64,000 bases of DNA from Paraglaciecola sp. (GTDB lineage Bacteria; Pseudomonadota; Gammaproteobacteria; Enterobacterales; Alteromonadaceae). Position 1 is the first letter of the stretch, and every line of letters starts with the position of its first letter. Made by a program: the position numbers and the translations under genes. A model generated the notes under the pieces. That model ran no database searches and was not told the DNA's origin. It was given only the letters and a program-made list of their open reading frames with translations. The DNA lies in the NCBI GenBank assembly GCA_009993955.1, contig JAACSL010000005.1, positions 62,001-126,000 of the forward strand, in the 5' to 3' direction. Of this stretch, positions 44,509-58,928 are shown piece after piece.

Positions 44509-45066
44509 ATGTTAAGACACTATTACGTCAGCGATGACTTGCAAGAACTAGAAGCGGTGGAAAACGAATTGCAGAATCAAGGCGTTACCACCCCGCAAAT
44601 TCATGTCCTCAGTGAAAATGATGCCGAGGTAGAACAACACCATCTGCACGCCATTGAACCCGTTTTAAAAAAAGACGTGGTGCGTTCCACTAAACGTGGC
44701 GCCTTAATTGGCTTGTTGGGTGCAGCATTATTACTGGTGGTCACGTATGTGATGCAATGGCACGTTAGTGCAGTCGGTTGGGTGCCGTTTATTTTTTGTG
44801 CCTTAGTCACCTTGGGTTTTTGCACCTGGCAAGGGGGCTTGATCGGCATTCAAATACCTAATCATCAATTTGCGCGCTTTCAAGCCCTGCTTAAACAAGG
44901 TAAACATATCTTTTTTGTCGATTTTGACAAAACACAAGAAACCGTGGTGCAAGGGGTGTTGAGCCGTCATCCTAAACTTGAATTTGCCGGCACCGGACCA
45001 GCCACTCCCGCATGGGTGGTGCGAGGCCAAGACAAATTTAGTCATATGATGAAAGTGATGCCCTAA
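44509..45066 (+). CDS. Conserved small membrane protein of unknown function
   Basis: 185-residue protein with an N-terminal soluble part that looks like a ferredoxin-like regulatory fold (RHYYVSDDLQELEAVENEL, then TPQIHVLSEND), two membrane segments at about 68-83 and 90-115 separated by a WHVSAVGW turn, and a C-terminal soluble tail. Proteins of this kind are widespread in Gammaproteobacteria, with uncertain names and no proven role. A strong GGAGGG ribosome site precedes the ATG. A short tandem repeat follows the gene at 45074-45136. Confidence 0.65.
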   Translation: MLRHYYVSDDLQELEAVENELQNQGVTTPQIHVLSENDAEVEQHHLHAIEPVLKKDVVRSTKRGALIGLLGAALLLVVTYVMQWHVSAVGWVPFIFCALVTLGFCTWQGGLIGIQIPNHQFARFQALLKQGKHIFFVDFDKTQETVVQGVLSRHPKLEFAGTGPATPAWVVRGQDKFSHMMKVMP

Positions 45067-45939: not shown

Positions 45940-45955
45940 TGCCCCTTTGTATTGG

Positions 45956-47176
45956 CTAACGTAACCCTAATTCAACATCACGAATGATGTAATTGCCTGA
46001 GTATTGTGGGTGGTTTTCGCCACTGGTGTCCAAGGCAAAATAACTTTGTTCTTCTTGGCTTAAACCCTGATACCCCCCCACCACTTGATAAATCCATACT
46101 TCAGGGTCGAAATCTAGGGCCTGCTGCTGAAAATACTGCAAGGCGGTAATGCGCTCGCCACTATCAATCACCTGACAAAAATACGCTTCCACTGCTTGAC
46201 GCAACTTGTCTTCGGCAAACTGCGCATCACTTTGTTGTTCAACTTTGATTTTTTGTGCGGCACGCTCTGGCTGTTGACGTATTTGGTTGCGACTAAAGGC
46301 TTTAATCGCCCCCACCAGTTGCTGCAATTCTGCTTCATGTTCTAGTCGATGCACATCCACTGCCGCTGGTTTAATGAGTGCCGCAGCCTGATTAAACAAC
46401 ATAGGCACTTGGCTGAGCTGCGCGTAGTTGCTGGGGCTAAAGTCGGGCTTGTGCTCCATGTGTAGCAAAAAGCCCTTAAGTAGCTGGGTACGCCCTTTAA
46501 ATTGGCGAAAACGACCGATTAACTCCAGTAAACGGGCCTGCACAATAGACAACTCTTGGATCACTTTGGCAAAACACTGTTGTAAGGTTACCACCAACAA
46601 ATGTCGCAATTCTCGGTGGCTGCCAGCTTGCTCACTGAGTTCATCAAAGCGCAACATCTCCAGTTGCTTCAGTAAGTCACTCACTTGGGATTGTGCCAAT
46701 TCGTTTTCGCGGATTTTGGCATCAATGGATGACACGTAACCAAATTCATTGTTGATGCGACTGAATAACACCCGCACATTGTTGGCGAGAGATTCGGTTA
46801 AAGCGTAAACATGCTCGGTTAAATCCGCCAAATGTGCTTCCGATTCGGCATAACGCCCATGATGCAGGGCTTCTTTATAGTGCACCGACAAGGATTTAAA
46901 GCTCGCCAAAGCAGAGGCGATATTGGCGTCCAGTTGGCGATTGCGCTCATCATGCAAACTGCCTTCGAGTAAATTACGCACCGCAGATTTCAAGCGTAAT
47001 TGCGTATCCGCTTCGGGGCGCCACAAGATCCCCAAGTGACAGAGTTTTTCGATGGTTTTAGGATTATGTTTGGCTTCGTCTAATACCCCCGCAATGTAGA
47101 CCTGCATAATCAGGTCGGCATGGCGACTTAAGGCATTAAGCAGGGTAATACCCGCTTGCTGTAAGTGTTGGTTCAT
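45956..47176 (-). CDS. Condensin kleisin-like subunit (MksF/JetA-like)
   Basis: 406-residue mostly helical protein with no membrane segment. The N-terminal part looks like a winged-helix/helical region, the middle (about 150-290) is coiled-coil rich, and the C-terminal end has an acidic-aromatic stretch (DPEVWIYQVVGGYQGL). It is the third gene of an operon with a small winged-helix partner and an SMC-type ATPase, which fits a kleisin of the MukF/MksF/JetA kind. I chose the ATG at 47176, with GAGG eight bases upstream; a TTG at 47206 extends the frame by ten codons. Assignment rests mainly on operon context. Confidence 0.6.
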   Translation of the reverse strand: MNQHLQQAGITLLNALSRHADLIMQVYIAGVLDEAKHNPKTIEKLCHLGILWRPEADTQLRLKSAVRNLLEGSLHDERNRQLDANIASALASFKSLSVHYKEALHHGRYAESEAHLADLTEHVYALTESLANNVRVLFSRINNEFGYVSSIDAKIRENELAQSQVSDLLKQLEMLRFDELSEQAGSHRELRHLLVVTLQQCFAKVIQELSIVQARLLELIGRFRQFKGRTQLLKGFLLHMEHKPDFSPSNYAQLSQVPMLFNQAAALIKPAAVDVHRLEHEAELQQLVGAIKAFSRNQIRQQPERAAQKIKVEQQSDAQFAEDKLRQAVEAYFCQVIDSGERITALQYFQQQALDFDPEVWIYQVVGGYQGLSQEEQSYFALDTSGENHPQYSGNYIIRDVELGLR

Positions 47177-47243
47177 TACCCTAGCCTCACCCCAGTCAAA
47201 AACCAAACTTGGCTGCTAGCTGTCATTACATACGGCCAAGGCA

Positions 47244-47879
47244 TCATAACAAACTACCTTGTTGCACCGCTTGCTCAGCTTGCGCGGTAAGCGACAAGGC
47301 TTCTGTTTCGTCAATAAATTTAAGTACATCGTATAAGTACTCAATTTTACCAGTGGCGATGTATATCTGTTTTTCAGCATTAGGGCGCAGCAAATACCCC
47401 AGTTCTGTTAAGCGCTTGAACACCTGCTTTAATTGCCCATCGAGCTGAGTGCTGGTTGAGCCAAACAAACGATTGCGTGAAATTTTTTCAATTTGTTCGG
47501 CAAAAGCGGGAGTATCTTCAATGATGGTTTGCAGTTCATTTAAGCGCAGGGCCGTGCCTTGGCTAACCGGAACATCCGAGCCATTGGCTTGTTGTACCAG
47601 TATCAACCATTCCACCAAGGGCATTAAATGACTGGTAATGTCTTGAAATTGACTGCCCAACTGCTTGCGTTCGTTGTCATATAAACTTTGGTAGGCAGCA
47701 AAAAATACCTCACCGTCGGCGGCACTGGCCAAGGTACGATTAAGCACGTTGAGTTGGCTTTCAATTTTATCACCGTTACCGGCGGTTTTTAGAAAACGCC
47801 ACGCTTCCTCGTCACTCACCTGACAAACAAAACAGCCCGATAACAACAGTTCTAATACGCGACCCTGTTCGGTGATCAT
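47244..47879 (-). CDS. Condensin small subunit (MksE/JetB-like)
   Basis: 211-residue helical protein predicted to be the MukE/MksE/JetB partner: it is short, has winged-helix-like segments near the C-terminus (FKRLTELGYLLRPNAEKQIYIA), and sits between the SMC gene and the kleisin-like gene. Its ATG overlaps the stop of the SMC gene (ATGA at 47876-47879), so stoichiometry is probably set by coupling. The family assignment is inferred from size, fold signs and neighbours. Confidence 0.6.
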   Translation of the reverse strand: MITEQGRVLELLLSGCFVCQVSDEEAWRFLKTAGNGDKIESQLNVLNRTLASAADGEVFFAAYQSLYDNERKQLGSQFQDITSHLMPLVEWLILVQQANGSDVPVSQGTALRLNELQTIIEDTPAFAEQIEKISRNRLFGSTSTQLDGQLKQVFKRLTELGYLLRPNAEKQIYIATGKIEYLYDVLKFIDETEALSLTAQAEQAVQQGSLL

Positions 47880-50800
47880 ACTTCCACCTCATTTTGCTTG
47901 GCTTGGTGCATAGCGTGCTGTTTGGCTAATTTAAGGCGTTGGGTGATGGCACTCACCTTGGGTTGCACAACCTGCAACTTACGTGTGGTTTTATCAATCA
48001 AATAGCGGTTTTCAAACAAGGTCAGCACTTCTGATTCAGGATTAGGGAAGGCACCCACCACAGAGATATTGTTATTGTGGCACGCGTCAAAAATCTTCTT
48101 CACGTTACTTTGGTGTAAGGTACCAAGTTCATCAATTGGCCAATGGATGGTGGCATCGGCTTTACCCCGCAACAAACGAGTAAAGGCCAACAAGAACTTA
48201 CACAAAATTAAGTAGGCCATACCGTGACTAGACGACTCATTTAATTGGCGGTCGGTGCGAATGATCAAATCACTGTTGCCCTCTCGCAAATGCAGTTCTA
48301 TATCCAACAGCTTACTGATGCCACCGGTGAGTGCAGCTCTGCCAAGTATGTCCAAGACTTTACGCATGCTGTGCGCGTAGTCATCGTCAGGCAATTCATT
48401 GGCACCTTCACTCATCCACGTTTGATAAAGCTTGTTGAACTGTGCCAGTTCTGGCCAAAACTCCAATTCGCTGATGCGCGAACGGATCTTCACGGCAGAC
48501 TCCGATACGCCTTCTAAAAATAGCTCTTCGTCCACTTCTTTACTGATGCGTTTACTTTGACTTTCGATGCGCCGGTCAATGTCTTCCAATACCTTGTAAT
48601 ACTGCGTCAGGTCAGCGCCAAAAATGCGCCCTTGTTCCCGTAAACCCTGTAGTTTTTGCGGCACGATCACATTCAGTAATTGGGCGAGATGCCCCACTAA
48701 ACGTCGATGATCAATGCCACGGATTCCCTGCTGATTCAACGTGGCACATTCTTCACGTGAACGCTCCCACGTATCCGACAGTCCTGTTCCCGCTTGTGCG
48801 GCAATCAATTGGTCGAAGTGCTCCACATAGGCTTTAATATCGGCCAGCAAATTCTCGCGGTTTTGCAATAAAGCCTGACCTTCGGTGATGCGCTGGGCGA
48901 TGTTTAGGCTGTTGCCACTGTTGTCTGCTTTTTCGGCCACTTCCGGCACCGTTAAGCTTAATTTGGCCAACTGACGTTTAATATTTTGCACCGCCAATTC
49001 TTGTTCTTTGTTGGTAGTTAAACTGACTTCAAATTGGCTTTGTTGCTCTTTAAATTGTTGGCGTTGGGTTTTGTACGCTGTTTGTTGTTTGTTCAACTCA
49101 CGTTCGGCCTGACTGGCGGCCTTTTTCGCTTTGGCGAGTTGTTGTTGCCAATTCAGCTTATGCCCGGTAAACACGGTTTTATACCAATGTTCATAGTCTT
49201 TCACGGTATGCCGATGGGTTTCGGTATGCAAAATATCCTGTTTAAGCTGTTTGATGTGTTTCTGTAAGGCACCTATTTCATCGACATCGACACCACGCTG
49301 AGCGAGTTCATCCGCCAACCATTGTTCGGATTTTTTCTTCTCGAGTGCCGCATTTTGTCGGGCTTTTTGCATGTGTTGTTCAATTTGATTCAACTGCTGT
49401 TGGGTATCACCCAATAACTGTTGCCAATGGAACTGATGCTCAGTTTGCGCTTCGCGTAATTGATCATGCAGAGCCGCTTGGGCACTTTGATGCTGCATCT
49501 GCTCTTTGTGTTGTTGGCTTTCATTGTCTTTGAGCAAGTGTTTATTTTGTTGTTTGCGCTCGCTTACGGCCTGAGCATATTCTTGCTGAATTTGCTCTTT
49601 GTCGGCTTGTAAACGTTTGCGATTTGCTTCTGCAGTGCGTGCATCGCTCTCGCGTTTGGCCTGTAATAATTCCTTGTTACGTACCTCTTCACTGGCTTTG
49701 GCCAGTTCAAGTTCCACTTCATTTTGACTCGCTAATAGTTCAGCTAAACGCTGCTGTGCAGCATGCAAACGCTGCTGTAAAGCATGTTCAGATTCTGCGT
49801 AGTCGGGTAAGGCCACATGGCTCAAATCCAAGCGCACGCCAAACATACTCGCCTCGGCCTGTGGCACAAACTGTGGTTTCAGATCATTACGTTTGAGCAA
49901 ATCTGGGTGAATGACTTTACCCAGATCGTGTTCCCAACCCGGTTGTTCTTTGCGTAAACTCTCCAACAAACTGTGGTGTCCGGGATACAGCAACGCTTCA
50001 ACATTGTTGACTTGTTGTTGTTGCAGTAAATACGCTTTGCGGGCCTGTTCGAGGCTTTCATTGGCTTTGCTGCGTTGCTGTTGACATTGTTGATGAGCCT
50101 GCTGGGCGGCACGTAGTTTGTCGCGGCTGTGATCTTCTAGGCCATTGGCCTCTTTGATACTGACATCTAACAAATCTAATTGGCTTTGTTCAAATTCGCT
50201 GAAGCCGGCATTTTTTAAACTGGCTTGTAAGCTGGCTTGTTGAATTTTTAATTCACCTAGGCGTTGCTGGTATTCGCTATCGAGCTGGTTTTGTTGTTGC
50301 TGGAAATCTTGTTTAATCTCCTGCAAGCGTGATTGTTCTTGGCTACGCTGCTCGGTCAATTTGTCTTGCAAACTTTGTTTTTGTTCGCCATAGGTATCCA
50401 GTTCCATGCGCAATCTGTCATTCAGATCCGCCACACGTTTGTTAAACGCAGACTCCACGTCTTGGTGTTTTTCGGTGAGCAAACTGTAACGAGCCGAGGC
50501 TGTAGTCAATTCACTTTGCCACTGCGGCAAGACTTGCAGATTAGCTTGCAGCGTTTCCACGTCTTGGTCTTGCCAGGCGTCAAACTCTTTTTCTACCTGC
50601 TCAAGGTCTTTTTCAATTTTTAAACTATCGGCTTTGGCGGCTGACAGGTGTTGATTCAATGCATCGCGAGCGCTCGACCAGTCATGTTCTTGTTTTTTCA
50701 GGCTTAACAAGGTGTCGTCTAATTGCCCTTGAGCACGGAGGATCCCCGCGGCTAACTTGCTCAAATCCATGTCAAACTGCTGCTTAAGCTGAGATAAACG

Positions 50801-51592
50801 TGACTCAGCTTGACTCAACTCATGATCTGCTCGCTCTAATTTGGCAAATTCAGGGCGAATTTCATCAAACTCTTTGATCAAATGGCATTCGCGGATCCAA
50901 TCTTCTACCCGATGGCGACTTAATCCTGACGTAGGCGGTTGCACGCCATCTTCTTCCAAAATAGCGGCAATCATGGCCTTGATGGTTTCCATTTTGCCTT
51001 CTTTACTGTGCACCGCTTTTGCCAGCTTTTCGATGTGCCGCAGTTGATGACTGCTGTCACACAAACTAAAAATTCTGGCATAACCCAACAGCTCACGACT
51101 ATTGGCACAACTGTTCAATACGCCACGATCATTTTGCAAAATGGCGCGATAGTCTTTGGTGTTTAGAAGATTAGTGACCAGCACGTTTGCGCGCTTTAAA
51201 TTTCGCGCCAATTCGTTCATCGATATGCTGGCGTGTTCTCCGGCTTTGTTCTGGTACAAATAATCACTGAGTTCAAAGGGTTTGCCGATTAAGCGATAAT
51301 TCACCCCACTGCCGCTGGATGCTAATACGACCTGACACAAATCTTCTTCGTTGCGAGCATATTCGTAGATGATAAAACTTGATTCACGGGGTAAATACCA
51401 ACGCTCGAAACTGTCACGTGTGGCAGGCACCACTCGGCTTGGATATTCACCATAAAATACCGGAATAAGGCGTTGCAAGGTGGTTTTACCTGAGGCATTG
51501 GTACCACAAATGTTGGTATGACCCTTGAGTTTTAATTCCACCACGCCGGGCAGATGGGTGTCGATAAGAATAATGCGATGTAAACCAGGCAT
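47876..51592 (-). CDS. SMC-type ATPase (MksB/JetC-like)
   Basis: 1238-residue SMC-like ATPase. Walker A is GTNASGKTT at 30-38 and Walker B is HWPIDEL near 1150-1156 (Asp1154, Glu1155), with SSHGMAYLILCKF upstream of it in the place of the ABC signature. Between them are long Gln/Glu/Lys-rich coiled coils with a gap that could be a hinge. It resembles the DUF3584-type condensin ATPases (MksB and Wadjet JetC). It is first in a coupled three-gene operon, and a good AAAGGG site precedes the ATG. It would compact or extrude DNA loops; a defence or chromosome-maintenance role is undecided. Confidence 0.72.
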   Translation of the reverse strand: MPGLHRIILIDTHLPGVVELKLKGHTNICGTNASGKTTLQRLIPVFYGEYPSRVVPATRDSFERWYLPRESSFIIYEYARNEEDLCQVVLASSGSGVNYRLIGKPFELSDYLYQNKAGEHASISMNELARNLKRANVLVTNLLNTKDYRAILQNDRGVLNSCANSRELLGYARIFSLCDSSHQLRHIEKLAKAVHSKEGKMETIKAMIAAILEEDGVQPPTSGLSRHRVEDWIRECHLIKEFDEIRPEFAKLERADHELSQAESRLSQLKQQFDMDLSKLAAGILRAQGQLDDTLLSLKKQEHDWSSARDALNQHLSAAKADSLKIEKDLEQVEKEFDAWQDQDVETLQANLQVLPQWQSELTTASARYSLLTEKHQDVESAFNKRVADLNDRLRMELDTYGEQKQSLQDKLTEQRSQEQSRLQEIKQDFQQQQNQLDSEYQQRLGELKIQQASLQASLKNAGFSEFEQSQLDLLDVSIKEANGLEDHSRDKLRAAQQAHQQCQQQRSKANESLEQARKAYLLQQQQVNNVEALLYPGHHSLLESLRKEQPGWEHDLGKVIHPDLLKRNDLKPQFVPQAEASMFGVRLDLSHVALPDYAESEHALQQRLHAAQQRLAELLASQNEVELELAKASEEVRNKELLQAKRESDARTAEANRKRLQADKEQIQQEYAQAVSERKQQNKHLLKDNESQQHKEQMQHQSAQAALHDQLREAQTEHQFHWQQLLGDTQQQLNQIEQHMQKARQNAALEKKKSEQWLADELAQRGVDVDEIGALQKHIKQLKQDILHTETHRHTVKDYEHWYKTVFTGHKLNWQQQLAKAKKAASQAERELNKQQTAYKTQRQQFKEQQSQFEVSLTTNKEQELAVQNIKRQLAKLSLTVPEVAEKADNSGNSLNIAQRITEGQALLQNRENLLADIKAYVEHFDQLIAAQAGTGLSDTWERSREECATLNQQGIRGIDHRRLVGHLAQLLNVIVPQKLQGLREQGRIFGADLTQYYKVLEDIDRRIESQSKRISKEVDEELFLEGVSESAVKIRSRISELEFWPELAQFNKLYQTWMSEGANELPDDDYAHSMRKVLDILGRAALTGGISKLLDIELHLREGNSDLIIRTDRQLNESSSHGMAYLILCKFLLAFTRLLRGKADATIHWPIDELGTLHQSNVKKIFDACHNNNISVVGAFPNPESEVLTLFENRYLIDKTTRKLQVVQPKVSAITQRLKLAKQHAMHQAKQNEVEV

Positions 51593-51978: not shown

Positions 51979-54114
51979 GTGTCAAAATTGCTTGCTGAAA
52001 TGCGTCGCCGCCGAGTATTGCAAACCTTTGTACCCTACTTGGGTTTTGTCTGGTTGGTGTTGCAAGTTGTCAGTGTGATCACCCCCATGCTTAACTGGTC
52101 ACCCTTGGTGAATACCTTTGTGGCCGTGTTATTGTTTGCTGGCATGCCGGTCATGTTATACCTGTCGTGGTATTTCGATTTTACCAGTGAGGGACTGATC
52201 GCGATTCCTGACAAACACACCAATGAAGTGACACCCTTTGGGGCGCTTCGCTGGTCGATTTTACTGCTGATCACCCTAGGCTCTGGTGTTTTCGCTTATC
52301 GCTATTATACGGATGTGGAAGTGGAGTTTGCCAAATCGCAGGAAGGCATTCAGGCCACGTTTATTGCCGATTCTATTGCGGTATTACCCTTCAAAGATGC
52401 CAGTGCAGATCAAGACCAAGGGTTTTTAGCTCAAGGTCTAGCCGAAGAAATCACTAGCTTGCTGGGGCGCACCGCAGGTTTAAAAGTCGCGGCTTCCAGC
52501 TCCACTCTGGTCTTAACTGAAAAAGGGCTTGACCCAGTCACCCTTGCTCGGCGCTTAAACGTCAAAACGGTATTAAGCGGCAGTGTCAGGGTCCCCGGCG
52601 ACCAACTTAAAATCCGCGTAGAGCTGATGAATGCGCAAGATGCCAAAGTATTGTGGAGTGAAACCTTCGCCCGCAAATTTAATGACATTTTTAATGTTGA
52701 AAGCGAAATTGCGCGCTCCACCGTGAACATGCTGCAAGACAGCTATATTGAAAGTGGCTCACTTAACAACAGCGCCAGCACCAAAAGCACTGATGCCTAT
52801 GTGATTTACCTCAAAGGCCGCGAGCAATACCGCAAACAAACCACTGAGGCCATGAAAGAGGCACGCAAGTTGTTTGAACAAGCTATTGGCCTCGACCCAG
52901 AATACACCCAAGCCTACGTGGGTTTAGCGGACACCATTCTCATGCTCGCCAAAGGTGAAACCCGCTTTGGTGTGTTGGATGTCGAGGTGGCGAATAGGCT
53001 TGCCGAACAATATCTAGAAAAGGTATTTGTGAGAAATTCCACTTTGGATTATGCCTTTGCTCTGCGCGGTAAAATTTTGGAACGCAGGCATGAAACAGAC
53101 GAGGCGCTTGCCGCCTATGACAAGGCCATAAGCTTAAATCCCAGTTTATCCATAGCCTACATGTGGCGTTATTTAGTGTTAAAAAGAGCGGAGCGCTTTA
53201 GTGAGTCGCTAGCCTCATTAAAAATGGCTAACGAACTGGACCCGCTTTCCGTTGCGAATATTTATAATTTGGGTTTTGAGTATAAAATCCGCGGCAAAAC
53301 AGACCAAGCGAGTAAGCAATATAAACTACTCATTGACGAATATCCTGCACTGCCCATGGGTTATGCGGGTTTGGCGGATCTTGCCTTTGCCCAAGGGAAC
53401 TATGCCCAGAGCTTAGAGTATTGGGCGCAAGCTAAACGCATATCACCTGAAAACCAAAGTTATGAAGAGAACTACAATGATGTCATTTTGGCCTTAAATC
53501 TAGGCGATTTGTTGCCCGAGGAAATGAAAAATAACCCCAGTTATCAAAACACCTATCTGTTGCAAACGGGTAAATATGAGGAATTATTTGCGCAAATCAA
53601 TTTTGACATGTTGGCCAACCCTGATGACCCTTGGTTGAAATTTGAGGCCGCGTGGTATCAAGCCTTGGTAGGTGATCGCACAATCGCTCAGATTCAGTTT
53701 GGCGAACTGCGTGATAAGTTTGTCTCAGCAGAGTTGTACAGTATGCCCTACTGCAGCCCTGCGATTGAGATTGCCTGGGCTGACCTGAATAATGCACCTG
53801 AAAGTGGCAAGGTTTTGTTAGCTAAGTGTGCTCAGTTGGCAGACATCGCCAAACAGAGCGAGATACGCAGCAATACCTTGCTTTATTTACAAGCAAGGAT
53901 AGCCAGTCTGCAAGGCAAAACCGACTTAGCCATAGATTTATTGGATAACGCCATTGCGTCGGGCTGGACAGAATGGTGGACAGCCCTCGATCCCTTACTT
54001 GACAATATTAAATCAGCGCCAAAAGCCCAAGCCTTGTTAAAAAAGCTAGACGCTAAGTTAACAGAGCAGCGCCAATTAACGCTGCCTGTGTTGGCGCCTG
54101 TACAACAAGAATAG
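51979..54114 (+). CDS. Membrane protein with TolB-like domain and TPR repeats
   Basis: 711-residue protein. Two membrane segments occupy about residues 17-60 and a third lies at about 91-108. Next comes a TolB-N/FlgO-like domain (SIAVLPFKDASADQDQGFLAQGLAEEITSLL, about 134-165), and from about 265 onward TPR repeats (EARKLFEQAIGLDPEYTQAYVGLAD and similar). Related proteins often carry an adenylate cyclase or CadC-like DNA-binding domain at the N-terminus; here that part is absent and membrane helices stand in its place. The start is a GTG. Function is unknown; it probably mediates protein interactions at the inner membrane. Its 3' end overlaps the convergent gene by 39 bases. Confidence 0.7.
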   Translation: MSKLLAEMRRRRVLQTFVPYLGFVWLVLQVVSVITPMLNWSPLVNTFVAVLLFAGMPVMLYLSWYFDFTSEGLIAIPDKHTNEVTPFGALRWSILLLITLGSGVFAYRYYTDVEVEFAKSQEGIQATFIADSIAVLPFKDASADQDQGFLAQGLAEEITSLLGRTAGLKVAASSSTLVLTEKGLDPVTLARRLNVKTVLSGSVRVPGDQLKIRVELMNAQDAKVLWSETFARKFNDIFNVESEIARSTVNMLQDSYIESGSLNNSASTKSTDAYVIYLKGREQYRKQTTEAMKEARKLFEQAIGLDPEYTQAYVGLADTILMLAKGETRFGVLDVEVANRLAEQYLEKVFVRNSTLDYAFALRGKILERRHETDEALAAYDKAISLNPSLSIAYMWRYLVLKRAERFSESLASLKMANELDPLSVANIYNLGFEYKIRGKTDQASKQYKLLIDEYPALPMGYAGLADLAFAQGNYAQSLEYWAQAKRISPENQSYEENYNDVILALNLGDLLPEEMKNNPSYQNTYLLQTGKYEELFAQINFDMLANPDDPWLKFEAAWYQALVGDRTIAQIQFGELRDKFVSAELYSMPYCSPAIEIAWADLNNAPESGKVLLAKCAQLADIAKQSEIRSNTLLYLQARIASLQGKTDLAIDLLDNAIASGWTEWWTALDPLLDNIKSAPKAQALLKKLDAKLTEQRQLTLPVLAPVQQE

Positions 54115-54963
54115 CCAACCGAGTCGCACCACCACACCGCCCGGAGCACTCACAACATTGGGGTCTTGAGGGCTTCTGGCCAAAATAGTCAATGAGGTGC
54201 TTGAAGAGAAACTTAACTCAGAGTAAAGTCCAGAATAGCCGCAGATAAATTCCTCAGGATCAGTGTTTGCAATGGGATCACAATCGGGTATGGGCGTTTC
54301 GTGAACATTGAGATCGTAAAACCTAAAGTTGTCGCCACTTTGCTGCGACACTGAAAAATCAACGCGATACTCGCCAGCACGCATATTGGTTGGCATTGGG
54401 GCATTTAAATAAACCGGCGTTGAACCGTTGGTGTTTGTATAGGAAATTTCACTGCCCGAAAACTGCCAAATGTTGCCATCGGTGAGTGAAGTGATGGTCC
54501 AGGCAAAATGTTGCAAACTATCGGTAAACAGCACTTCAAAAAAGCCCTCAATATCTAAGGCTTCACCCTCTTCAAATTCCCATTTGCAGGCAGTGCGTTG
54601 GCCACTTGGATACTCAGCAAAATAGCGCTCAATCAGGGCATTTCGTTCAGCATCATCAACGATGGCATCAAGGTCAACGCCATAAAACAAATCGCCAGTA
54701 TTAGCAAAACACTCACCGGTGGGCGTAGCATAAATATCTAAACGCTCACCTGCCTGACTGATAGCTGGTGTGCCATTAGGTCTGCCATTATTGGTAAAGT
54801 TGGCATCTAAACCCAGATAATTTGTATAGGCGATAGGTACAATGAAATAGGTATCTGAATTTGACTCGGTTTCGGCCCCACCACTTCGCACCAATCTTGC
54901 CTCAGCCACACAAGCCGACAGCACCAACGATACACCGATAAGTTTCCAGAAACGTTTCATCAT
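54076..54963 (-). CDS. Secreted protein with candidate VSAP-type exosortase sorting tail
   Basis: 295-residue exported protein of unknown function. The N-terminus is a signal peptide with a lipobox-like LSAC, ending near residue 18, although cleavage after AEA is also possible. The middle is acidic and rich in Asn/Thr/Tyr, as in surface proteins. The end matches a PEP-CTERM type tail: VSAP, then 14 mostly hydrophobic residues, then RR and further basic residues. VSAP is a variant of the PEP motif; one Arg sits inside the hydrophobic stretch, which is unusual. XrtA at 31637-33139 would be the matching enzyme. It is convergent with, and overlaps, the TPR gene. Confidence 0.6.
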   Translation of the reverse strand: MMKRFWKLIGVSLVLSACVAEARLVRSGGAETESNSDTYFIVPIAYTNYLGLDANFTNNGRPNGTPAISQAGERLDIYATPTGECFANTGDLFYGVDLDAIVDDAERNALIERYFAEYPSGQRTACKWEFEEGEALDIEGFFEVLFTDSLQHFAWTITSLTDGNIWQFSGSEISYTNTNGSTPVYLNAPMPTNMRAGEYRVDFSVSQQSGDNFRFYDLNVHETPIPDCDPIANTDPEEFICGYSGLYSELSFSSSTSLTILARSPQDPNVVSAPGGVVVRLGWLFLLYRRQHRQR

Positions 54964-55120
54964 CTTCCCTCTACCGTTATTAAAAATTGATTGTTACCAC
55001 CTTGTCGCACTTAAGCAGCAAAATCTGACTGTTTAATTTTTGCACAATCAGTGTGGCACTGCTGTTCTCACAAATCAATGCGTGTAAAGTAGCTACCCTA
55101 CCATGATCAGGATGGACAAC

Positions 55121-55774
55121 ATGTTAAAAAAAGCCTACTCAATACACGCTTTGCACTCAATCTTGTGTGCGGTCTTCATCACCCTAAGTGTAAATCTGTT
55201 TTTTACGCTGCAAAGTGCCACTGCCTCAGAAACCCCAGCCCCCGTCAAGGCCACTATCGAGACGAGCTTAGGTAATATCCAGATTGAACTGTATTCACAT
55301 CAAGCTCCCCTCACCGTAGCGAATTTTGTGCGTTATATACAGGCAAATGCCTTCACTGGCGGGCGTTTTTATCGCGTTGTACGGTTAGACAACGACAATG
55401 GCAGCCCAAAGATTGAGGTGGTGCAAGGAGGCGTTAATCCTGATTTTAAAGAGTTTGCCCCGATTGCGCTGGAAAGCACCCAGCAAACTGGCATTAAACA
55501 TCTCGACGGCACGCTCTCCATGGCACGCGGCGCACCTGATACCGCCACCTCTGAGTTTTTTATCTGCATAGGTGAACAACCTGCTCTGGACCATGGCGCG
55601 CTCCGTAACCCCGATGGTCAGGGTTTTGCCGCCTTTGGCCGTGTTGTATCTGGCATGGATGTTGTCAAAGCCATTCATCAAATTCGTGAGGCGCAGGAGG
55701 TGGAAGATGCCTATGTCAAGGGCCAGATGTTGGCCGAGCCTGTCAACATCATTAGGGTCTCACTCGATAAATAA
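55121..55774 (+). CDS. Periplasmic peptidyl-prolyl isomerase (cyclophilin type)
   Basis: 217-residue cyclophilin. An N-terminal signal sequence (about residues 10-36) is followed by the fold: TIETSLGNIQIELYSHQAPLTVANFVRYI, FTGGRFYRVVR, VVQGG, and TLSMARGAPDTATSEFFICIG with the conserved Phe-Phe. It would speed Xaa-Pro isomerisation in exported proteins. I chose the ATG at 55121, with AGGA eight bases upstream, rather than in-frame ATGs at 55103 or 55112. Confidence 0.9.
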   Translation: MLKKAYSIHALHSILCAVFITLSVNLFFTLQSATASETPAPVKATIETSLGNIQIELYSHQAPLTVANFVRYIQANAFTGGRFYRVVRLDNDNGSPKIEVVQGGVNPDFKEFAPIALESTQQTGIKHLDGTLSMARGAPDTATSEFFICIGEQPALDHGALRNPDGQGFAAFGRVVSGMDVVKAIHQIREAQEVEDAYVKGQMLAEPVNIIRVSLDK

Positions 55775-55840
55775 CTGAGGTTTGAATGAACTAAGCTGGT
55801 CTGTGTGACGTAGCCTAAGCTAAATAAATAAGGTGGCACT

Positions 55841-56023
55841 ATGTTCAATTTGTTTAAGTCTGACCCAACAAAAAAACTGCGCAAAAAATACGACGCTCTC
55901 TCGACCCAAGCCATGTTAGCTCAGCGTAAAGGGGATATTCGTTTATATTCGACGTTAACGGCTGAGGCAGAAGGCTTGTGGCAACAGATCAGAGATCTAG
56001 AGAATCATAAGCAAAGCAAATAA
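55841..56023 (+). CDS. Small DUF6435-like protein
   Basis: 60-residue, highly charged helical protein (FNLFKSDPTKKLRKKYDALSTQAMLAQRKGDIRLYSTLTAEAE). The pattern of short amphipathic helices with a GDIR turn matches a small family of uncharacterised proteins (DUF6435/Lacal_2735-like). It has an AAGGTGG ribosome site just upstream. A strong hairpin follows it. Function unknown. Confidence 0.7.
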   Translation: MFNLFKSDPTKKLRKKYDALSTQAMLAQRKGDIRLYSTLTAEAEGLWQQIRDLENHKQSK

Positions 56024-56028
56024 GCTCA

Positions 56029-56050
56029 AACTGGCGAATTCTCGCCAGTT
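56029..56050 (+). terminator. Strong stem-loop after the small protein gene
   Basis: AACTGGCGA at 56029-56037 and TCGCCAGTT at 56042-56050 form a perfect 9-bp stem with a four-base loop, six bases after the stop codon. There is no T-run, so it may stop transcription weakly or protect the mRNA end. Confidence 0.5.
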
Positions 56051-56091
56051 ATCTCACACTAGTAGTAGCCACCGTGTGAAGGGAGAAGGCA

Positions 56092-56649
56092 ATGCTTGAA
56101 CAAAGTGACAATACCAGCGCATATCGCAAGGTTTTTAGTGATTATCAACAAGGTTTCCTGCAAGCAATACAGCTATTTCGTCATCCCGCCGATTTAAAAC
56201 TTAGCCCCGTGCTGTCAGATGAAAGCATACTTAAGCTTAAAGACATCTTAGCCAAAACAGCAAAAAGGCAAAGCGTGAGTGTGGCCTTAGTGGGTCAATC
56301 GGCGCATAACCAAGCCCTGCTCATCAATCATATCGCGCACGCCCTGAAACAAACCATTGCGGTGGTTGATTGTTTACTGCTCACCAGCAAATACATTGGT
56401 GAAACCGAAAAAAACCTCGCCCACATTTTGGCTGAGGCAGAGAGTCAAAATTTAGTGCTATTATTCGACGAGGCGGATGCGCTGTTTGGCAAACGCACTG
56501 AAGTCAGCGGTGCAAACGACAAATACGCAAATCAAGAAGTCAGTTATATTTTTAAACTGCTGGGGCAAAGTAGTGGATTAAGCCTACTCAGTGTTCACAA
56601 TACGCCGCGTTTGAGCCTCCTGAAAACCCGCGTGAACTATGTCTTGTAG
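56092..56649 (+). CDS. AAA-like protein lacking the P-loop
   Basis: 185-residue protein whose second half is plainly an AAA+ module: KYIGETEKNLAHIL (99-112), Walker B LVLLFDEADALFGKR (121-135) and a following ANQEVSYIFKLL helix. The place of Walker A (about 66-77) reads ALVGQSAHNQAL, with no Gly-Lys-Thr, so ATP binding is probably lost. The protein ends soon after the sensor-like strand and lacks the lid domain. It may be a truncated or regulatory remnant. A GGGAGAAGG ribosome site suggests it is translated. Confidence 0.65.
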   Translation: MLEQSDNTSAYRKVFSDYQQGFLQAIQLFRHPADLKLSPVLSDESILKLKDILAKTAKRQSVSVALVGQSAHNQALLINHIAHALKQTIAVVDCLLLTSKYIGETEKNLAHILAEAESQNLVLLFDEADALFGKRTEVSGANDKYANQEVSYIFKLLGQSSGLSLLSVHNTPRLSLLKTRVNYVL

Positions 56650-56650
56650 C

Positions 56651-57547
56651 TCAGCGTTTTGAACCGATAGTTAACCCAACATTCTCAATTTCATCAAGAA
56701 TTGACAAGTTAGCAAGGGCTAACTGACATCCCAGTTGCAAACAACTTCCATCGGCGGAACAATCGACTTGCCATTGACGCAACACATAGGCCGCAATGGC
56801 CGCTCGCACGTGGATGCAAAGCTGGCCGTCGGTCATGGCATAATCCATTTCGATGGCTTTGGGTTGTTTTAAACCTGGGTGCGGTATGAGTATTAACTTA
56901 ACCAAACGTTGCCATTGTTCATCATAAGGACTGGCTTCATGCACATGCACTGGGCCGCTCAAAGCCTGCAGGTTAGTGAAGCGGCTGCAGACAAAATCTC
57001 GGAAACAGTTGCGCTTGCGATCGTAGGCGCGCACATGCCAACGATGCCCGTTATTAACAATGGAGTGGGGTACGATGGCCCGCTCAGTGTCGCCAGATGT
57101 GACTGACACATAGTGGCACTTCAACGCCTGTTTATTATGAATCGCTCGCATTAATCCAGCGATGATTTCGGCATTAGGATGAATAAGTCGCACTGCGTCA
57201 AAACAGTGTTCTGAAGGTTGGGTACCCGATGACATGCCATTGCCAAAACCACGGCTTAACGAAGCGAGGATCACTTCAGGATTGTGTTTAAACAAGGGTT
57301 TAAACGCAGCACAACGATGATAACTCTTGGTTTGATGCACAAGTTGCATATTTTCCGGCACCAATTCTTTGTAGGTAGCAAAGTCCCGAGTGCTGGCGGC
57401 TAAACCGGTACGAAATCGTTGAATGAGATCGTTGCGTGTTATCTGTCCAAAATACTGCAAACTAAAATCGATAAATGCGAGGCGGTCTTGCTGAGCATGA
57501 CTTAAAAGCGCCAATTGTTCGCGGATAACGGTTGCGTGTTGTGACAT
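56651..57547 (-). CDS. WYL-domain transcriptional regulator (BrxR/CapW-like layout)
   Basis: 298-residue predicted regulator. An N-terminal winged helix (RLAFIDFSLQYFGQITRNDLIQRF, then AASTRDFATYKEL as the recognition region, about 21-60) is followed by a WYL-type ligand domain (about 120-200, with HYVSVTSG and RWHVRAYDRKRNCFRDF) and a C-terminal extension. This layout is the one known for BrxR/CapW regulators that sit beside phage-defence operons, but no BREX or CBASS gene is visible here. It ends two bases beyond the convergent AAA-like gene. Confidence 0.7.
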   Translation of the reverse strand: MSQHATVIREQLALLSHAQQDRLAFIDFSLQYFGQITRNDLIQRFRTGLAASTRDFATYKELVPENMQLVHQTKSYHRCAAFKPLFKHNPEVILASLSRGFGNGMSSGTQPSEHCFDAVRLIHPNAEIIAGLMRAIHNKQALKCHYVSVTSGDTERAIVPHSIVNNGHRWHVRAYDRKRNCFRDFVCSRFTNLQALSGPVHVHEASPYDEQWQRLVKLILIPHPGLKQPKAIEMDYAMTDGQLCIHVRAAIAAYVLRQWQVDCSADGSCLQLGCQLALANLSILDEIENVGLTIGSKR

Positions 57548-57675
57548 AGCTGAATTCTCATCCTGATAGATGATGTCAGGCTACGCCAAAATTACCAAGG
57601 TTGCAATCATAATGATGACATCTTTTGTATTACTTCTAATGAAATAAACGTCGACATTGCCTCATCTGCGAATCT

Positions 57676-58437
57676 TCAAGCGGGCAATGGCAAGCTGCCA
57701 TCCACTAAAAAATCATCACGGTAGAAACTCAACGGTTTCCCTTGCCCAGCTTGATTAAAACTCACTTTGTCATGCTGGGTTAAACACCACCAGTTTTGTT
57801 GATTCAGCGGTTGTTTGCTGACGATCACCGAAGGCTGGGCAATCGCCACATTCATCGCCCCGAGAATCCTAGCCGATGGATAACGAATAAGATTGATACC
57901 TTGTTCAGCGCTCAGCCACCGCCCTATTGTTTGGCTAAAATGATAGCTGGTAGGACTGGTCAGCGCCTGTATCACCGGAGCAAAGTCGGCAAGGCTTAAA
58001 TCAGCGCAGTGCTCGCTGGAGACTTTGAGATTAAAGGACATGTGTTGAGATTTGATGCTGTGGGCGTAGGCCTGTTGCATGTGACTGAGAAATACAAAAC
58101 GATAATAGGCCACTTCACCTAGGGTAGGTTCCAGCGTTTCACCGGCATAAAAAAAGCTGGCGACCTGCCTGCTACCAAAACGAGAACCATATTTGAGTGG
58201 TGGATAACGAAAGGGGGTCTTGAGCAAATAATGCATGTGCTCACTGCCTGCCCGATAAGGGGGCTTTACTTCATCTAACAGTTGTTCGAGCAGAAACTGC
58301 TCGTCAAAATCGTCAACTAGCTGCAAGGTGGCCGCTACTTCTTGCGTTTCCACCACCCGACAGACCTGCGCCGCATAAACATTCGGGCAATCACTTTTAT
58401 CGTAGAGTCGAATAAAATCGTGCAGGCTTGGCATCAA
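57676..58437 (-). CDS. RES-domain toxin
   Basis: 253-residue protein with a RES domain (named for conserved Arg, Glu, Ser): CRVVET, YPPLKYGSRFGSRQVASFFYAGETLEPTLGEVAYYR and a later SPTSYHFSQTIGRWL segment. RES toxins are NAD+ phosphorylases or related NAD-consuming enzymes. It lies 20 bases downstream of an Xre-type antitoxin gene in the same operon, the standard order for this type II system. It has no frameshift, so it is likely functional. Confidence 0.85.
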   Translation of the reverse strand: MMPSLHDFIRLYDKSDCPNVYAAQVCRVVETQEVAATLQLVDDFDEQFLLEQLLDEVKPPYRAGSEHMHYLLKTPFRYPPLKYGSRFGSRQVASFFYAGETLEPTLGEVAYYRFVFLSHMQQAYAHSIKSQHMSFNLKVSSEHCADLSLADFAPVIQALTSPTSYHFSQTIGRWLSAEQGINLIRYPSARILGAMNVAIAQPSVIVSKQPLNQQNWWCLTQHDKVSFNQAGQGKPLSFYRDDFLVDGSLPLPA

Positions 58438-58457
58438 TAAATGTCGCGCTATCAGGT

Positions 58458-58832
58458 TTAAATCTTGCCGCGCATGGCATCGAGATAATCATTGGTCTGA
58501 ATCAAACCCGCGACAGACATCACCAACTCTCGGGGCACGCCGTGCAAAGCTGAATTGCTGCTACTAAACCATTGACGCATAAAACCTTGATCACCACCAG
58601 CAATGGCATAAAGCGAGCGGTACAGGCGGATAAAATGCAGAGACAACTCAGCAGATTTGGAGTCATGGCTAAAACCCACTGCTGCCTTGCGCGCAAGGGT
58701 TGAGCGATTGACACCAATAATTTTCGCCGCGTCAGCCTTGTTGACCCCTAGTTCAACACAGGCCCTATTAAACGCTTTTAGGATCACCGTGGCAGGATCA
58801 GGACTGTTTTGTGTTTGCGTGGCAGCAGACAT
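58458..58832 (-). CDS. MbcA/ParS/Xre antitoxin
   Basis: 124-residue antitoxin with an Xre-like helix-turn-helix near residues 25-50 (ACVELGVNKADAAKIIGVNRSTLARKA) and a C-terminal toxin-binding domain (DUF2384-like: FIRLYRSLYAIAGGD, NSALHGVPRELVMSVAGLIQTNDYLDAMRGKI). I chose the ATG at 58832, with GGAG seven bases upstream, instead of the longer frame to 58922 that runs through the promoter. It binds the RES toxin and represses its own operon at the repeats described upstream. Confidence 0.85.
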   Translation of the reverse strand: MSAATQTQNSPDPATVILKAFNRACVELGVNKADAAKIIGVNRSTLARKAAVGFSHDSKSAELSLHFIRLYRSLYAIAGGDQGFMRQWFSSSNSALHGVPRELVMSVAGLIQTNDYLDAMRGKI

Positions 58833-58871
58833 GAACAACTCCAAAAATACAAATAGAACGACACAAACAAG

Positions 58872-58928
58872 AGCATAATGGCATTTGCAGCAAATGTCAC
58901 TTTTTAGATTTATTTGATGCAAATGCCA
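58872..58928 (-). promoter_or_regulatory. Antitoxin promoter with operator repeats
   Basis: On the minus strand GTGACA (58895-58900) and TATGCT (58872-58877) make a -35/-10 pair with a 17-base spacer. A near-perfect inverted repeat of the ten-base element GCAAATGCCA spans 58879-58899 and fills this spacer, and a third copy in direct orientation lies at 58919-58928. The layout fits autorepression by the antitoxin. Confidence 0.65.

Follow-up and report, generated by a model that had tools for sequence, protein, structure and literature searches.

A nuclease-less, SMC-first operon in Paraglaciecola, best read as a chromosome-organising condensin of a lineage that repeatedly sheds its nuclease

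A three-gene operon headed by a DUF3584 ATPase

We analysed a 64,000-nucleotide stretch of a Paraglaciecola sp. genome (contig JAACSL010000005.1, positions 62,001 to 126,000; this whole stretch is called the window here), in which three intact reading frames on the minus strand, at 51592–45956, form an operon encoding in turn an SMC-type ATPase, a KITE protein and a kleisin-like protein. An initial annotation had described a condensin operon with these same coordinates and frames, and had correctly named its neighbours, genes for a LysE exporter and for a tetratricopeptide repeat (TPR) protein. The ATPase (47876–51592, minus strand, 1238 aa) matched Pfam DUF3584 (PF12128) over its full length (1069 bits, residues 8–1201, against a cut-off of 31). 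Its Walker A motif reads GTNASGKT (residues 30–37) and its Walker B motif lies at about 1150–1155, around P1152-D1154-E1155; the residues G30, N32, G35, K36, P1152, D1154 and E1155 were invariant among 20 aligned sequences including that of the window, bearing out the annotation's SMC-type ATPase with both motifs. The KITE gene (47244–47879, minus strand, 211 aa) shares four bases at its start with the SMC stop, and the kleisin-like gene (45956–47206, minus strand) encodes 416 aa if translation begins at a TTG codon, or 406 aa if it begins at the ATG at 47176.

Searching the sequences of the three proteins against the PDB gave no relevant match, and profile and sequence searches with the kleisin-like protein gave none to proteins of known function; predicted folds were more informative. 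We call the small protein a KITE subunit (MukE/MksE/JetB-like) because the first 15 PDB matches of its AlphaFold model (predicted local distance difference test score, pLDDT, 88) were all JetABC or MukE chains, 10 of the 15 at E ≤0.001, with template modelling (TM) scores of 0.40–0.50; the top match was chain C of a JetABC entry (E = 2.3e–5, probability 1.00, TM-score 0.50). At the sequence level it scored 22.4 bits with the MksE profile, under the 27-bit cut-off, and 29 of the 34 aligned KITE members, the window's among them, matched that profile at E 0.1 or better. The third protein (MukF/JetA-like) is labelled kleisin-like because of fold matches of modest significance and its place in the operon: the first 10 matches of its predicted model (pLDDT 79, predicted TM-score 0.40) were all MukBEF, MukF or JetABC chains, with E from 1.6e–3 to 2.1e–2 (none ≤0.001) and low TM-scores. 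The kinship to MukE that the annotation had supposed for the 211-residue protein thus stands; the kinship to MukF of the 406-residue protein has fold matches of modest significance behind it, with no relevant profile match beside them.

Relatives of the operon and their fourth gene

Relatives were taken from an order sample of 197 genomes, 75 of which encode a DUF3584 SMC, from a family (Alteromonadaceae-type) sample of 147 genomes, and from named loci, the best 80 of at least 397, so that this last set leans to Alteromonadaceae and Shewanella, with a few Stutzerimonas, Pseudomonas, Thiocystis, Thiorhodococcus and Thiocapsa. There were 156 loci with an SMC match, of which nine (seven duplicates, and L074 and L114 with partial SMCs) were left out of the tree; in the remaining 147 the fourth gene described below was scored for 144 (not for L049, L050 and L093), with L048 counted as bearing it since its genome, G110, carries the gene 5 kb further on. 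The order SMC-KITE-kleisin on one strand was found in all 147 distinct loci, window included, and held even for relatives whose SMC identity was just 21–28%. The annotation had remarked that this order is reversed relative to known operons, and those described in the available portion of PMC10123090 are indeed ordered mksFEBG (kleisin-KITE-SMC-nuclease). Two side observations concern the loci themselves: in family f6, the operon of L046 adjoins the symporter-like gene that also flanks the usual version in L059–L063 yet is 25% identical to that version, so that one locus has two very different alleles; and core genes are split in some relatives (SMC and kleisin in L227, kleisin in L172, SMC in L031), all three of them nuclease-bearing.

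The same survey of gene order, which the annotation had proposed, brought to light by clustering of flanks a recurrent gene directly after the kleisin gene, present in 61 of the 144 scored loci. Its product is a TOPRIM protein of ~290 residues belonging to Pfam DUF7281 (59–197 bits in the eight members scanned), with E141, D204 and D206 of the TOPRIM pattern E...DxD invariant in 22 aligned rows; a profile scan of the frame after the kleisin gene in L050 gave no DUF7281 match. DUF7281 proteins matched the JetD models of Pfam and PADLOC weakly, and the DUF7281 profile aligned with three classical JetD sequences over the E...DxD region (probability 88.7%, E = 2.6e–6), suggesting that the protein is remotely related to the Wadjet nuclease JetD. 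An open-access literature search found no paper on DUF7281, one listing for DUF3584 together with condensin, and nothing on MksB as a condensin in Shewanella or on MukB in Psychromonas.

The fourth gene is closely tied to the operon. It lay on the operon strand in 60 of 60 loci with a strong match and within 200 bp of the kleisin gene in 59 of these, overlapping it in 37 of the 60 (frames being called from the first start codon). Strong DUF7281 matches occurred only in SMC-bearing genomes (42 of 42 in the order sample, 18 of 18 in the family sample), and no strong match was found in 33 of the 75 and 53 of the 71 SMC-bearing genomes of the two samples, a few of these negatives coming from draft genomes in which a contig breaks off at the locus (G017, G104). 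Weak matches of 20–34 bits in G101, G088, G325 and G237 were excluded; G101 and G325 had no SMC match. In L104 (genome G036) the nuclease is kept 482 bp from the kleisin gene, with one frame inserted, and in L048/L114 (G110) it is kept with four large frames inserted between the two.

Absence of the nuclease at a collinear locus

The closest relative found is in Paraglaciecola sp. MAG_65 (locus L119, SMC 80% identical). Collinearity of this locus with the window extends to either side of the operon, with homologues of the window genes at 51979–58922 on one and of LysE and KefB on the other, and it carries a nuclease gene (L119 14269–15117, 149 bits to DUF7281) between the kleisin and LysE genes. 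At that position in the window 16 bp (45940–45955) lie between the stop codon of the kleisin gene and LysE, which runs convergently to it. The annotation had noted that no JetD/MksG gene was adjacent and had asked whether a JetD homologue might be encoded elsewhere; profile searches of the window genome (listed as 100% complete, 82 contigs) found neither a JetD_C protein nor a DUF7281 nuclease anywhere in it. In the order sample JetD_C matches occurred in 33 of the 197 genomes, some of them being DUF7281 genes or other TOPRIM proteins.

Such contrasts, with and without the nuclease at a shared place, were seen also in Shewanella-type loci, before a symporter-like gene (dicarboxylate; labelled by eye), and in families f2, f9, f11 and f16; among the named Alteromonadaceae-type loci, 3 of 38 were nuclease-bearing. 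One difference between the window and the otherwise collinear L119 lies off the operon: a 185-residue protein between LysE and KefB (window 44509–45066, plus strand), with no Pfam match and no counterpart in L119, has a 64% homologue in L223, on the far side of the operon.

Loss or gain of the nuclease

On a FastTree phylogeny of the 147 SMCs, parsimony required at least 22 changes of nuclease state, a count blurred by horizontal SMC transfer and uncertain long branches on an unrooted tree made by a fast method. In 500 shuffles of that state at least 36 changes were required (mean 46), showing that nuclease presence is labile yet not random. Direct evidence of loss, as opposed to gain, comes from loci that still hold an end of the gene: in L071 the final 27 aa of the nuclease persist, 96% identical to L073, and the sister loci L192 and L190 retain the first 30 aa and 36 bp near the start, respectively. 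A nuclease-like stretch in L168 was weak (E = 8e–6, 70% over 110 bp) and is left out of this tally. The remaining nuclease-less loci, including that of the window, showed no clear trace of the gene. The nuclease tree broadly followed the SMC tree when the two were compared by eye, which suggests an old gene and makes loss the best reading where it is missing.

The opposite history would make the nuclease a latecomer, the three-gene condensin being ancestral and the fourth gene gained repeatedly at the same spot. Parsimony on an unrooted tree cannot separate gain from loss, the nuclease evolves fast (median ratio of nonsynonymous to synonymous substitution rates, dN/dS, 0.19 for 16 pairs), like a module under different selection, and one deep group (L045, L049, L050) is without a strong nuclease match. 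We nevertheless consider this history very unlikely, since the nuclease is found in all other deep branches in the same orientation and at near-zero spacing, its tree runs broadly parallel to that of the SMC, and truncated ends of it survive in three loci.

Selection on the three-gene core

We estimated dN/dS by a fast method from close pairs (dS 0.05–1.0), which are non-independent. Median values without the nuclease were 0.044 for SMC (42 pairs), 0.018 for KITE (54) and 0.040 for kleisin (38); those with it were 0.030 (27 pairs), 0.018 (28) and 0.036 (26), and mixed pairs gave 0.064 (29), 0.029 (45) and 0.049 (40), with maxima of 0.65, 0.43 and 0.70 in the three classes. Comparing conserved alignment columns between 39 loci with and 75 without the nuclease, we found one column in SMC and none in KITE or kleisin that was conserved only with it, and two in SMC conserved only without it. 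From the dN/dS values and these columns we conclude that purifying selection still acts on the three proteins, with similar strength, where the nuclease is missing. The column comparison gave no signal of a nuclease-dependent surface on SMC, KITE or kleisin.

These results bear on whether the operon is what is left of a defence system, decaying and functionless now that its effector is gone. The missing nuclease of the window would fit such decay, as would the split core genes of L227, L172 and L031, though all three of those loci keep their nuclease. Against it, the nuclease-less medians (0.018–0.044) are close to those of nuclease-bearing copies, and the window genes are intact with their catalytic motifs kept, differing from L119 by a proportion of nonsynonymous differences (pN) of 0.08–0.13 at saturated silent sites. 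A clade of 19 Alteromonas-type loci, from which the nuclease is absent throughout, likewise keeps intact frames; decay is to our mind highly improbable.

Distribution, other condensins and mobility

Among Smc-bearing genomes of families f2, f6, f9 and f16, the DUF3584 SMC was present in 45 of 45. Family f11 (genus g21), where it was present in 24 of 24 genomes, is kept apart from that count, as 12 of these genomes, those of the first sample, had been listed via the SMC search itself. Those 12 genomes (99–100% complete) showed no Smc at E 1e–50 or better, no ScpB and no full MukB, the nearest to the last being one 24-bit MukB match in a 544-residue frame of G125; the best SMC_N matches in f11, among the matches listed, fall in frames that we take to be of RecF and RecN size. 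In the f11 genomes tested (12), the DUF3584 complex thus appears, from these searches, to be the only condensin candidate. Full MukB was found in one of the 75 DUF3584-bearing genomes (G114), and the window genome gave no match to the MukB N-terminal domain (PF04310). Core status in these five families is unlike the patchy occurrence of a defence gene.

Several observations weigh against the reading that the window complex shed a nuclease and was kept for chromosome organisation. The window genome already has a condensin in Smc (1035 bits) with ScpB, to which the complex comes as an addition. In f11 the nuclease is kept in 11 of the 12 genomes, and core status therefore does not require its loss. 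Only 71 of the 147 genomes of the Alteromonadaceae-type sample have the complex, pairs without the nuclease have a slightly raised SMC dN/dS (0.044, compared with 0.030 where it is present and 0.064 in mixed pairs), and, the window gap holding no nuclease remnant, the direction of change there rests on the trees and on L119. The window SMC is 34–35% identical to those of its five congeners (G198, G240, G273, G300 and G324, four of which have the nuclease), 75% to that of another genus code and 80% to that of L119, which points to replacement of the window allele by transfer. On these identities and on its presence in 71 of 147 genomes, the complex is exchanged horizontally, as defence genes are. 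Lastly, distant four-gene versions reside on plasmids of 40–910 kb, with the nuclease present in all nine loci examined (L225–L233), which were picked among the first 15 of 40 records.

It could be proposed that the window complex is still anti-plasmid, finding small circles by extrusion and disabling them without cutting, or borrowing an unrelated nuclease. Horizontal exchange, patchy presence in the window's family and four-gene relatives on plasmids all speak for this, and the unchanged conservation of KITE and kleisin after nuclease loss would equally fit a preserved sensor. We hold it to be unlikely, as no DUF7281 or JetD_C protein was found elsewhere in the window genome, as Wadjet restricts plasmids in B. 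subtilis only when its four subunits are complete (PMC10586767), and as the genes next to the kleisin gene in the nuclease-less loci looked at (neighbours labelled by eye) share nothing that could be a common replacement effector. A single HNH-type frame (label by eye) stands 54 bp after the kleisin gene of one such locus (L066 5437–5883), as a replacement or by chance. The annotation's suggestion of a distinct anti-plasmid system suits the relatives that have all four genes more than it suits the window. The family as a whole spans mobile, defence-like forms and settled chromosomal ones.

Comparison with known SMC systems

With Wadjet (JetABCD/MksBEFG) the window system shares SMC, KITE and kleisin-like subunits, the latter two with models that match JetABC chains, and its relatives add a fourth protein, of TOPRIM type, that carries the E...DxD residues. 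It departs from Wadjet in gene order, SMC-KITE-kleisin-(nuclease) as against kleisin-KITE-SMC-nuclease (compared with mksFEBG and with three classical loci, L115, L117 and L118, in which a frame read by eye as an SMC end precedes JetD), in the length of the fourth protein (~290 aa for DUF7281, 393–413 aa for three classical JetD frames from the same taxonomic order), and in the absence of a nuclease from both operon and genome. The PADLOC JetC models gave the window SMC at most 17.3 bits (E = 2e–4), over parts only, and the PADLOC Jet models had no match to the KITE or kleisin-like protein. Lacking the nuclease, ordered otherwise and drawing only partial 17-bit PADLOC matches, the window complex is not Wadjet as defined.

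In the text available of PMC10586767, P. aeruginosa MksBEF is a MukBEF-like complex that works without a nuclease beside Smc-ScpAB, as in the window, and likely derived from JetABCD by loss of JetD; MukBEF, according to the same source, may likewise come from Wadjet. The window complex differs from MksBEF in placing SMC first rather than following the order F-E-B, and with its MksE score below the cut-off it is not a clear MksBEF member. The window SMC, at 1238 aa, is also longer than MksB, and its lineage has many separate nuclease changes visible at shared loci. MukBEF, a dedicated condensin, has in common with it the KITE fold and, at modest significance, the kleisin fold; order and sequence differ, as does the lack of a MukB domain match in the window genome. 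We place the window complex in an SMC-first lineage marked by DUF3584 and DUF7281, as one of its members without the nuclease, and not simply as an MksBEF with its genes reversed. The likeness to MksBEF/Wadjet that the annotation saw is matched by the KITE fold and, at modest significance, by the kleisin fold, and what it took for a reversed arrangement belongs to a lineage that has a JetD-like fourth gene of its own, missing in this genome.

Discussion

The anatomy of the operon, the absence of the nuclease at a collinear locus, the recurrence of that absence across the tree and the purifying selection on nuclease-less copies are observed. We think it probable that the window holds a nuclease-less MukBEF/JetABC-like complex descended from a four-gene system and kept for chromosome organisation or segregation. 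The DUF3584 ATPase, KITE and kleisin proteins would form a complex of this type, very probably acting as an ATP-driven DNA loop extruder. Its ancestor would have been a four-gene SMC-KITE-kleisin-nuclease system whose last gene encoded the JetD-like DUF7281 protein; from this the nuclease gene would have been removed cleanly in the window genome, as we infer the direction there to be, with the three-subunit motor retained, most likely for a chromosomal task beside Smc-ScpAB. The nuclease-less, chromosome-organising form that the annotation had put forward is thus supported as the best reading, namely that the lineage has discarded its nuclease time and again and lives on as a condensin that organises the chromosome, a role inferred from selection, core status and the f11 genomes in which no other condensin was found.

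The many pairs with and without the nuclease at shared loci, some of them near-identical, make the nuclease-loss proposal put forward in PMC10586767, so far as its available text sets it out, testable, and in the f11 genus one could ask directly whether a single complex that keeps its nuclease can run both immunity and chromosome organisation. Surveys based on PADLOC 2023 may miss the four-gene form, because its models detect the SMC (at most 17 bits) and the DUF7281 nucleases scanned (at most 34 bits) weakly. More tentatively, and with somewhat less than even confidence, we propose that this is an SMC defence lineage in repeated domestication, which restricts plasmids where it has the nuclease, serves as sole condensin too in at least one genus where neither Smc nor MukB was found, and becomes a pure housekeeping condensin without the nuclease. 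If that is true, one motor serves both immunity and chromosome folding, and the nuclease is a detachable, fast-evolving module.

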